Source: Caldilineaceae bacterium (GTDB lineage: Bacteria > Chloroflexota > Anaerolineae > Caldilineales > Caldilineaceae). From it: DNA of 47,410 nucleotides. The stretch spans positions 1 to 47,410 of the forward strand of contig JADLFO010000015.1 of assembly GCA_020845455.1 (NCBI GenBank), read 5' to 3'. The position numbers were made by a program, and so were the translations under genes. Every line of letters begins with the position of its first letter. Positions within the stretch are counted from its first letter, which is position 1. The notes below the pieces were generated by a model that saw nothing but the letters and a program-made list of their open reading frames with translations, had not been told where the DNA came from and made no database searches. This document shows positions 3,248-5,577 of this stretch, piece after piece.

Positions 3248-5107
3248 CTACTCTACGGTCACGCTTTTTGCCAGGTTGCGCGGTTGATCCACATCCGCGC
3301 CGCGGCGCACCGCCATCTCATACGCAAACACCTGCAGCGGGATTACAGACAGGATCGGCTGCAACAGCTCATGGCTGCGCGGCACAGGCAAAATGCGATC
3401 CACTTTGTCGCGAATGTAGGCATCGTCGGCATGGGCCACCGCCAACACGGTGCCATGCCGCGCTTTCACCTGCTCCACCTGGCTGATCATCTTGTCATAG
3501 ACCCCATCGCGCGGGGCCAGCACCACCGTGGGCATCTTGGCATCGATCAGCGCGATTGGACCGTGTTTCATCTCCCCTGCCGGGTAGCCCTCGGCATGGA
3601 TATAGCTGATCTCCTTCAGCTTCAGCGCCCCTTCACGCGCCACCGGGTAGTGCATCCCGCGCCCCAGATAAAGAAAATTGTGATAGGTATGAAACTCCTC
3701 GGCCAGTTGAGCATAGAGATCGCCGTGCCAAGCGTCCTCCAGCAATTGCCCGGCCAGCCCCGGCAGCGTCGACAGCGCATGGATGATCTCGCCGCGCTGC
3801 CCTACATCCAATGTGCCGCGCACCTGGCCGAGATAGAGCGCCACCAGCAGCAGATCGGTGACCGACGCCGTAAAGGCCTTGGTGCTCGCCACCCCGATCT
3901 CCGGCCCGGCCTGCATATAGACTACACCGTCGCAGACACGCGCCGCCTGGCTGCCTACGGCGTTGACAATCGCCGCGGTCAACGCGCCCTGTTCACGTCC
4001 CTCGTCCAACGCCGCCAGCGTGTCGACCGTCTCGCCGCTTTGCGTAATCGCCAGGATCAACTGGTTGGGGCCGATCACCGGCTGTCGATAGCGGTATTCG
4101 CTGGCGTAATCGACCTCCACCGGCAGCCGCGCCAGCCGTTCAATGTAGTACTTGCCGATCAACCCCGAATAGTAGCTCGTCCCACAGGCGACGATCGTCA
4201 CCTTCGCCAACTGCTGCGCCTGGGCGTCGCCCAGATTCAGTGTATCCAGCAGTACCCGGTTCCCGGCAAAGTCAAGCCGGTTGCGCAAGGTGTCGGTCAG
4301 GCTACGGCCCTGCTCGAAGATCTCCTTCTGCATAAAGTGGCGATACTCGCCCTTTTCCGCCGCCATCGGGTTCCAGTCGATCGTCGTCACCGGCTTAGTC
4401 AGGGGCTTGCCCGCCAGATCCGAATAGCTTGCGCCTGCCCGCGTCACCACCGCCATCTGGCCGTTATCCAAAAAGACCATTCGCCGCGTGTGCGCCAGGA
4501 TCGCCGGGACATCGCTGGCAATAAAGGTTTCCCCGTCGCCCAGCCCCACGGCGACCCCGCCCGCGTTGCCCAGCCGCGCCGCCACCATCATCTCCGGGAA
4601 ATCCTGGCACAACACCACAATCGCGCTCGGCCCCTGCAGCTCCTTGAGCGCGCCGCGCACGGCCGCGGCCAGGTCTCCATGGCAGCCGTCGTGATAGAGA
4701 CGATGGATCAGATGGACAATGATCTCAGTATCGGTGTCGCTCTGGAAGCAATAGCCCTCTTGCCGCAGTTGCTCGCGCAGTTGTACAAAGTTCTCGACGA
4801 TCCCGTTCTGCACCACCACAAATTTGCCGTCGGGGCTGCTGTGCGGGTGCGCGTTGCGCTCGCTGGGCGCGCCGTGGGTTGCCCAGCGCGTATGCCCCAC
4901 CCCGACCGACCCCGTCACCGGCGACTCCTCCAACACCTCCGCCAGATTCGCCAGCTTGCCCACAGCGCGGCGCACCTGCACCGCGCCCGCGCCGTCGATC
5001 ACAGCCAAGCCTGCCGAATCGTAGCCGCGATACTCCAACCGGCGCAGCCCCTGGATCACAAACGGGGCTGCCGCGCGTTCGCCGATATAGCCGACAATGC
5101 CACACAT
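3248..5107 (-). CDS. glmS: glutamine--fructose-6-phosphate aminotransferase (isomerizing)
   Basis: This 619-aa cytoplasmic enzyme makes glucosamine-6-phosphate from fructose-6-phosphate and glutamine, the first step to UDP-GlcNAc. It starts with MCGIVGYIG, so Cys2 is the N-terminal nucleophile of the glutaminase domain after Met removal. GHTRWATHG and the HNG-like QNGIVEN follow. Two SIS sugar-isomerase domains come next, with CGTSYYSG, SQSGETVDT and ASTKAFT, and the protein ends in the classic NLAKSVTVE. ATG at 5107 has AAAGGA upstream. An in-frame extension to 5419 would run into the leader RNA and is rejected. Expression is probably controlled by the glmS ribozyme about 220 bases upstream. 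Confidence 0.97.
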   Translation of the reverse strand: MCGIVGYIGERAAAPFVIQGLRRLEYRGYDSAGLAVIDGAGAVQVRRAVGKLANLAEVLEESPVTGSVGVGHTRWATHGAPSERNAHPHSSPDGKFVVVQNGIVENFVQLREQLRQEGYCFQSDTDTEIIVHLIHRLYHDGCHGDLAAAVRGALKELQGPSAIVVLCQDFPEMMVAARLGNAGGVAVGLGDGETFIASDVPAILAHTRRMVFLDNGQMAVVTRAGASYSDLAGKPLTKPVTTIDWNPMAAEKGEYRHFMQKEIFEQGRSLTDTLRNRLDFAGNRVLLDTLNLGDAQAQQLAKVTIVACGTSYYSGLIGKYYIERLARLPVEVDYASEYRYRQPVIGPNQLILAITQSGETVDTLAALDEGREQGALTAAIVNAVGSQAARVCDGVVYMQAGPEIGVASTKAFTASVTDLLLVALYLGQVRGTLDVGQRGEIIHALSTLPGLAGQLLEDAWHGDLYAQLAEEFHTYHNFLYLGRGMHYPVAREGALKLKEISYIHAEGYPAGEMKHGPIALIDAKMPTVVLAPRDGVYDKMISQVEQVKARHGTVLAVAHADDAYIRDKVDRILPVPRSHELLQPILSVIPLQVFAYEMAVRRGADVDQPRNLAKSVTVE

Positions 5108-5327
5108 GATGCTGCATCCTTTCCCCAAAGAAGCAGGATGGCCGCGCCGCAACCGGAGACCGCCGCATGACACGCTCGCGCGCTTGCGACAACCAATCCA
5201 GCCTACGCCGGCCAAAGGGATTTGACAAAGTGAACTGCGATGATGGGTTTCCACTGCCTGGCATGTCTGTCCCGCACGTTGCCGCGCGGCTTTCAACACC
5301 GGCTTATCCAAGATGGATTGGGGAAAG

Positions 5328-5492
5328 ATGTACCAGAACCGGGCGGCTCTGGCGTGGGCCGGTGGAAACGGCCCAGGGGCATCCGCTGATCCTTCGATTT
5401 TCCCGGTGGGGTACCCCACCGGTTAGCCCGGCATCGCTGCCGGGAACCCCTTCCTCGTCACCCATCGGCTGCTGGCCGATGGGTCATGCGCT
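5328..5492 (-). ncRNA. glmS ribozyme (self-cleaving riboswitch), variant with insertion
   Basis: Read on the minus strand, the glmS leader shows the catalytic glmS ribozyme core in order. The cleavage site is A|GCGC (between 5492 and 5491). A P1 hairpin follows, with ACCCATCGGC pairing GCCGATGGGT. Next is the conserved TGACGAGG, then AGGGG (P2 left) and ATCGA. The core GCGGATG joins CCCCT (P2 right). P3 is TGGGCC with GGCCCA (5355-5360 and 5370-5375), and P4 is CCAGA with TCTGG (5333-5352). The ribozyme is known to cleave its own mRNA when glucosamine-6-phosphate binds, lowering glmS expression. The position directly upstream of glmS supports the call. Two extra hairpins interrupt the segment between the P2 left strand and ATCGA. 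The usual fifth substrate base C is A here. Confidence 0.85.
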
Positions 5493-5577
5493 CTCTTTCC
5501 CAGAGTTCAGATCTCTCGCTAATGCCCCCTTTACGCGCTCGCCTAACCGGATCGTCCGGCTCCGCCCTACAGACGGC

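Follow-up and report, generated by a model that had tools for sequence, protein, structure and literature searches.

Does the leader of glmS in this genome contain a genuine glmS ribozyme, and are the two additional hairpins that interrupt its core a meaningful part of the RNA? These questions are raised by a locus in a 47,410-nucleotide stretch of DNA from a Caldilineaceae bacterium (the whole stretch is hereafter called the window). A reading made from the letters alone had proposed that this locus is a glmS ribozyme carrying a two-hairpin insertion, from a probable Chloroflexota genome. No natural ribozyme other than glmS is known to employ a metabolite as its cofactor in catalysis, and this RNA is also a drug target. 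The prior picture of this RNA is of a uniform element that nearly always resides on glmS and that is read out by RNase J.

The host belongs to the Caldilineaceae, within Chloroflexota, the phylum that had been surmised. A scan with the Rfam glmS model, which had been suggested as a check, yields the single Rfam match in the window: RF00234 at positions 5503-5324 of the minus strand, covering model positions 1-167 with 42.9 bits, above the gathering score of 37. The gene directly downstream is recognised by the glmS profile TIGR01135, so that the proposed placement of a glmS ribozyme upstream of glmS is borne out. A profile search finds this gene to be the one full glmS of the genome, and an RF00234 search of the whole genome finds the window element to be its sole glmS ribozyme. 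The complete ribozyme occupies 5501-5248 of the minus strand and ends 141 nt upstream of the glmS start at 5107. Its identity follows from the match to the whole model, the GlmS protein encoded downstream and the invariance of the strands forming the pocket and active site. On these grounds, the window element is very probably a GlcN6P-dependent, self-cleaving glmS leader of a large Chloroflexota form.

The order of elements given in the sequence-only reading (A/GCGC, P1, AGGGG, ATCGA, GCGGATG, CCCCT) is recovered on the minus strand with every element where it had been placed, and AGGATCA stands between ATCGA and GCGGATG (Table 1). For the pattern TGACGAGG...ATCGA...GCGGANGCC, 0 matches are expected in shuffles. 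The strands GACGAGG, AUCGA, GCGG and A/GCG are invariant across 55 aligned relatives, as are A-1, G1, C2-G66, G39/G40 and the entire pocket. The double pseudoknot P2/P2.1/P2.2 is present in the window, with covariation in P2. In P2.1 and at two pairs of P2.2 the bases are complementary but invariant, and for these covariation therefore gives no independent proof. A minimum-energy fold of 5505-5240 (266 nt) contains P0, P1, P2, both inserted hairpins, P3, P3a and P4 (z = -4.8). The P3.1 pseudoknot was evaluated by swapping partners among 148 loci, which yields a score of 14.04 for each strand with its own partner versus 12.39 +/- 0.22 with swapped partners.

The boundaries of the element are drawn too narrowly in the sequence-only reading and by Rfam alike. 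Its end had been set at 5328, and the 3' strand of P0, P4 and the 3' strand of P3.1 all extend beyond that point; the 8 nt upstream of the cut that form the 5' strand of P0 are likewise part of the structure and had been left outside. The hairpin at 5353-5332, which a reader or Rfam would take for P4, is an additional one, P3a, and the true P4 lies further downstream.

Table 1. Features of the glmS leader in the window, all on the minus strand
Feature	Positions	Remarks
P0 5' strand GGGAAAGA	5494..5501	Ends 1 nt before A-1; pairs with 5328-5321
Predicted cleavage site A-1/G1	5492/5491	Rfam alignment; AGCG invariant in 55 aligned relatives
P1 hairpin	5460..5484	MFE fold; 7/7 counted pairs covary
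GACGAGG: P2.1 5' strand (CGA 5457-5455) and active-site strand	5453..5459	Invariant in 55 relatives
P2 5' strand AGGGG	5447..5451	Pairs with 5379-5375; 98.5% paired; 3 pairs with two-sided changes
Insert hairpin 1, CCCGGCA-GCGA-TGCCGGG	5427..5444	7 bp, GCGA tetraloop; 7/7 pairs covary, 96.3% paired
Linker CTAA between hairpins	5423..5426	Consensus YUAA; CTAA 60, TTAA 46, CCAA 14 of 128
Insert hairpin 2, CCGGTGGGG-TA-CCCCACCGG	5403..5422	Variable length, CCG...CGG base; 4/4 outer pairs covary, 93.8% paired
GAAA tail (5402-5399) and P2.1 3' strand UCG (5397-5395)	5395..5402	GAAA 111/128; UCG invariant
ATCGA	5398-5394	Sequence reading
P2.2 3' strand C62 A63 G64 C65 G66, and G67	5383..5388	Opposite C2 G3 C4 A5 U6 G7 (5490-5485)
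GCGGATG	5386-5380	Sequence reading
P2 3' strand CCCCU	5375..5379	Covariation with P2 5' strand
P3 hairpin	5356..5374	MFE fold; loop UUUCCAC (5368-5362) is P3.1 5' strand
P3a, extra hairpin	5332..5353	Fold, Rfam alignment; seen in Caldilineaceae; taken as P4 by Rfam
P0 3' strand UCUUUCCC, after P3 (5328-5321), within anti-SD strand UCUUUCCCCAA (5328-5318)	5318..5328	
P4	5256..5303	MFE fold; A-rich internal loop (UGAAA/ACAGA), GCAA tetraloop
P3.1 3' strand GUGGAAA	5248..5254	Partner-swap test; pairs with P3 loop
Shine-Dalgarno region UUGGGGAAAGG	5118..5128	Complementary to UCUUUCCCCAA at 5328-5318; 11 contiguous pairs, one G-U
glmS, glutamine--fructose-6-phosphate transaminase, 619 aa	3248..5107	TIGR01135, 769.3 bits

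In the Rfam alignment of the window, the hairpin region appears as a 52-nt unmodelled insert. The two extra hairpins that had been noticed between the 5' strand of P2 and ATCGA are indeed present, and they are conserved and covary in relatives. The insert statistics refer to 128 insertions parsed automatically, with 36 others unfit for the simple parser. Among those parsed, 104 have a hairpin 1 stem of 7 bp and 69 cap it with an exact GNRA tetraloop, mainly GCGA or GCAA. For the entire structure, the 55-sequence alignment gives a covariation score of 0.655; shuffling lowers it to 0.200 +/- 0.010, and sliding to no more than 0.162. Chance hairpins, an assembly artefact or a mobile insertion could in principle produce such an interruption, and we found nothing that supports any of these origins. 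More than 150 loci from many genera share the insert position, linker and tail, and this reading is refuted because the insert pairs covary, as every one of those counted does. The two-hairpin insert is a real, conserved and covarying module, in which hairpin 1, usually GNRA-capped, probably docks as a brace.

Compared with the RF00234 ribozymes of Bacillus and Thermoanaerobacter, for which crystal structures exist, the Chloroflexota RNA shares the A/GCG cut site, P1, P2, P2.1, P2.2, AUCGA and GCGGAUG, together with the P3/P3.1 pseudoknot, a P4 that has a GNRA loop and an internal loop rich in A, and the position upstream of glmS. It differs in a J2/2.1 that holds two hairpins in 46-125 nt instead of ~9 nt, in a 5' flank paired in P0, in the A5/A63 combination and in an overlapping anti-Shine-Dalgarno (anti-SD) segment; P3a is a further addition in Caldilineaceae. 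As predicted here, the Chloroflexota form keeps the double-pseudoknot core with its P3/P3.1/P4 support and places two further hairpins in the loop that leads from the 5' strand of P2 to the 3' strand of P2.1. McCown, Roth and Breaker reportedly described, in RNA in 2011, glmS variants from Deinococcus-Thermus whose catalytic core contains additional stems. These variants would share the feature of extra core stems, in a different phylum, and the core stems of Chloroflexia or Deinococcota may be the same module.

RF00234 matches occur in 125 of 400 Chloroflexota genomes, and in 21 of 46 genomes of the order to which the window belongs when a loose threshold is used. These Chloroflexota ribozymes are of two kinds, canonical with ~9 nt and two-hairpin with 45-125 nt from GACGAGG to AUCGA. 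When 84,980 species were scanned for the pattern of the two-hairpin form, at least 118 stretches were returned, of which ~115 are genuine; among the matches listed, nearly all are from Chloroflexota, and the taxa include Anaerolineae, Caldilineales, Thermoflexales, Roseiflexus and Chloroflexaceae. Pattern matches in Kribbella, Burkholderiales and Oscillibacter (L164, L193, L214) look like chance occurrences, and the Kribbella and Oscillibacter genomes have no match to R1, a covariance model built on the two-hairpin core architecture. Two-hairpin ribozymes are also found in metagenome-assembled genomes titled Spirochaetaceae, Paludibacter, Gracilibacteria and Bryobacterales (L136, L158, L192, L202), which are probably misbinned Chloroflexota contigs or else cases of transfer.

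R1 recognises the window with 108.3 bits (E 1e-20) and gives a strong match in 231 of 396 genomes of the class. Of 20 listed genomes of this class that are negative with Rfam, 11 are positive with R1. The earlier suggestion that such a variant may be missing from the standard alignment is thus correct in that Rfam does not model the hairpins and misses these genomes, but the window itself is still matched. In Bacillota, R1 matched 217 of 398 genomes, and none of the matches listed scores above 66 bits; nearly all of these span 65-100 nt, which identifies them as canonical forms without the insert. Within the family of the window, the genomes of genus g227 (G404-G420) gave no two-hairpin glmS ribozyme in the class search, which suggests loss within Caldilineaceae. 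In two loci of family f36 (L098, L109), AACGAGG and AGCGA, next to the ligand pocket, replace GACGAGG and AUCGA.

The fifth base after the cut had been read as an A with an A as its partner, and A5 (5487) does face A63 (5387), so the fourth P2.2 pair (5-53 in Tte, 5-63 in Bsu) is absent in the window. Positions 5/63 in the 55-sequence alignment (A1) are AA in 38 cases, CG in 11 and CA in 6, and across ~140 sequences they co-vary, with A5 accompanying A63 or C5 accompanying G63 with few exceptions. U6 is found in 79 of 104 two-hairpin A5 sequences and is common alongside A63, where it would perhaps allow a P2.2 with a shifted bulge (C4-G64, bulged A5, U6-A63, G7-C62). A third class, with G or A at position 4 followed by C5 and U6 and with A63, reads as a candidate bulge at position 4. 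A6 and C6 are also found with A63, so that a plain A5/A63 mismatch is conceivable too. The view that P2.2 is simply shortened is right only in part, since A5/A63 is a conserved, coupled combination that perhaps reflects a migrated bulge.

The fourth P2.2 pair is common but not required in glmS ribozymes. Published work describes it as poorly conserved, reports that 5-53 mismatches cost ~1000-fold in the Tte core, and proposes bulge shifting from double mutants in vitro (PMC7125110). Our sequences resemble those Tte-core mutants in that pairing shifts past a bulge at nucleotide 5 or 4, but there the evidence comes from double mutants in vitro, whereas here nucleotide 5 or 4 is unpaired in natural sequences. 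These natural P2.2 variants offer a direct test case for the bulge-shift idea. The A/A state is conserved in more than 100 relatives, and so the ribozyme is presumably functional despite the missing fourth pair.

The helix P0 spans the cut site. Among 154 two-hairpin loci, the P0 strands score 16.56 with their own partners, 13.62 +/- 0.21 with swapped partners and 11.83 with shuffled leaders. The 125 loci with at least 6 pairs contain 89 distinct helices, and most positions are occupied by every type of Watson-Crick pair; examples are CCAUGACG/CGUCAUGG in L221 and UGUUUAGG/CCUAAACA in L145. Canonical Chloroflexota glmS leaders give no P0 signal (own 11.31 versus swapped 11.55), and no P0 was seen in the Chloroflexia-type two-hairpin ribozymes (L027, L031, L054, L062). 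According to this comparative analysis, P0 in Anaerolineae links the bases immediately upstream of the cut with the strand that follows P3. We know of no published glmS ribozyme with a paired 5' flank.

In the window and in most relatives, the 3' strand of P0 is also complementary to the Shine-Dalgarno (SD) sequence, which suggests that cleavage frees this strand to block translation. Such a translation switch would have P0 hold the anti-SD in the uncut RNA, from which glmS would be translated, while cutting would detach the leader strand and let the SD displace it, with sequestration of the SD without mRNA decay; we consider this co-transcriptional switch a hypothesis and a real possibility, although one that falls somewhat short of an even chance. 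In its favour, SD complementarity of the P0 strand scores 14.78 for own partners versus 13.18 +/- 0.23 for swapped ones (maximum of 200 = 13.71; 118 loci), and the bases on either side of CCUCC/GGAGG covary (permutation p 1e-4 and 0.0017), but both of these permutation results ignore relatedness. Within the entire leader, the segment most complementary to the SD falls within or adjoins the 3' strand of P0 in 60 of 93 loci, against an expectation of ~17%. In these 60 loci it overlaps that strand nearly always, by 2-8 nt, although in many relatives the overlap is just 2-3 nt, and several members of the Caldilineaceae (L032, L035, L043) have a weak anti-SD. The SD:anti-SD duplex of the window is energetically favoured once the leader is loose (-16.2 kcal/mol versus -10.7 for P0). 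Pseudoknot-free folding with a 30-nt leader forms P0 with 8 bp and raises the SD:anti-SD probability from 0.01 in the uncut RNA to 0.48 in the cut RNA. However, SD accessibility in pseudoknot-free folding barely moves, from 0.24 to 0.27 on leader removal in the window and from 0.378 uncut to 0.354 cut as the mean of 105 loci. Moreover, with a 40-nt leader the minimum-energy fold sequesters the SD already in the uncut RNA, and a switch would then have to be kinetic.

The same helix and anti-SD could instead be structural or coincidental, with RNA decay as the only read-out, RNase J degrading the 5'-OH product as it does in Bacillus. Feedback on glmS in which RNase J1 degrades the 3' product is a known mechanism (PMC7125110), and the genome encodes RNase J (TIGR00649, 578.8 bits). 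Decay on its own leaves unexplained why a covarying helix joins a discarded 5' fragment to the mRNA and why P0 overlaps the anti-SD, and we would put this account somewhat under an even chance. A read-out by transcription termination is unsupported, since a terminator search of the window leader gave weak sites only. It is also conceivable that the RNA with its A5/A63 mismatch does not cleave fast and acts as a GlcN6P-binding riboswitch through the pairing of P0 and anti-SD, an apparent expression platform. The invariance of A-1, G1, C2-G66, G39/G40 and the whole pocket argues against this proposal, as does the predominance of U6 with A63, which permits the shifted-bulge P2.2, a rearrangement that rescues mutants in vitro. 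We regard it as improbable.

Reportedly, all but two of the 463 glmS ribozymes in the 2011 survey are on glmS. Downstream of ~200 two-hairpin loci we find GlmS in 153, glutamine synthetase in 18, an Ada-type protein in 11 and a glutamate-synthase-domain protein in 3. The glutamine synthetase loci come from two phyla, 15 from Anaerolineaceae and 3 from AT-rich Actinomycetota, the proteins of the latter being recognised by motif only. The Anaerolineaceae loci precede type I glnA (L074, L076, L091, L101, L102, L114, L118, L143, L186, L188, L206, L207, L217, L222, L287), and their ribozymes have G or A at position 4 (GCGGCUG/GCGACUG). The protein downstream in L217 matches GlnA with 554.8 bits. 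In the cases checked, these genomes have a further copy of the ribozyme before glmS, and in one (G311) both reside in a single cluster, glnA then glmS. The glnA leaders of L188 and L217 carry UGGAAGGG, complementary to CUCCCUUCCA, followed by GGGCAUGCCCGGGCAUGCCC and a U-rich tail, which is a terminator-like arrangement. In L186, an Rfam 6S RNA match (49.1 bits; 5339-5160, minus strand) lies just 5' of the glnA ribozyme.

The three AT-rich genomes (L316, L317, L318; ~1.0-1.4 Mb, in the phylum of Kribbella) carry a two-hairpin ribozyme with P0 before a glutamine synthetase-like ORF, and L178 apparently belongs to the same lineage. A glutamate synthase domain protein follows the ribozyme in L128, L285 and L286 (Pfam Glu_synthase for L128 and L286, similarity for L285). 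In Anaerolineae family f2 (L281, L290-L294, L296-L300, L302, L303), ribozymes with the altered core CACGAGG or UACGAGG and AUCGGAUNGAUCA precede an Ada-type HTH/O6-methylguanine-DNA methyltransferase, and an EamA/YedA exporter frequently comes next; this class may have a different ligand. Single loci have the ribozyme in front of a fusion of YvcK/CofD-like and phosphoglucosamine-mutase-like parts (L278) and of a GlcD-like FAD oxidase (L258). In the literature searched, no relevant publication deals with Chloroflexota glmS ribozymes or with a glmS ribozyme upstream of glutamine synthetase.

We propose that GlcN6P, the product of GlmS, would bind a preformed pocket; self-cleavage of the RNA between 5492 and 5491 would follow, and expression of glmS would drop, constituting negative feedback. 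The most likely read-out of repression would be the established one, in which the 5'-OH product decays and for which the genome encodes RNase J; in the window the freed P0 strand may additionally cover the SD. The glmS ribozyme itself is known already; what is new here, to our knowledge, is the conserved enlarged variant and its P0 helix with the anti-SD. More tentatively, and with the expectation that part or all of it may well fail, we suggest that the ribozyme branch found in Chloroflexota, and in certain Actinomycetota with small genomes, uses an expression platform of its own, in which GlcN6P-induced cleavage frees the anti-SD from the strand beside the cut and shuts off translation, and has been recruited to glutamine synthetase, glutamate-synthase-like and other genes, with GlcN6P reporting glutamine supply. 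A widespread form of the ribozyme with two conserved core helices, a helix that bridges the point of cleavage and a plausible read-out through translation could make nuclease-free gene control possible. The associations with glnA and glutamate synthase, if true, would point to a GlcN6P regulon in nitrogen assimilation.
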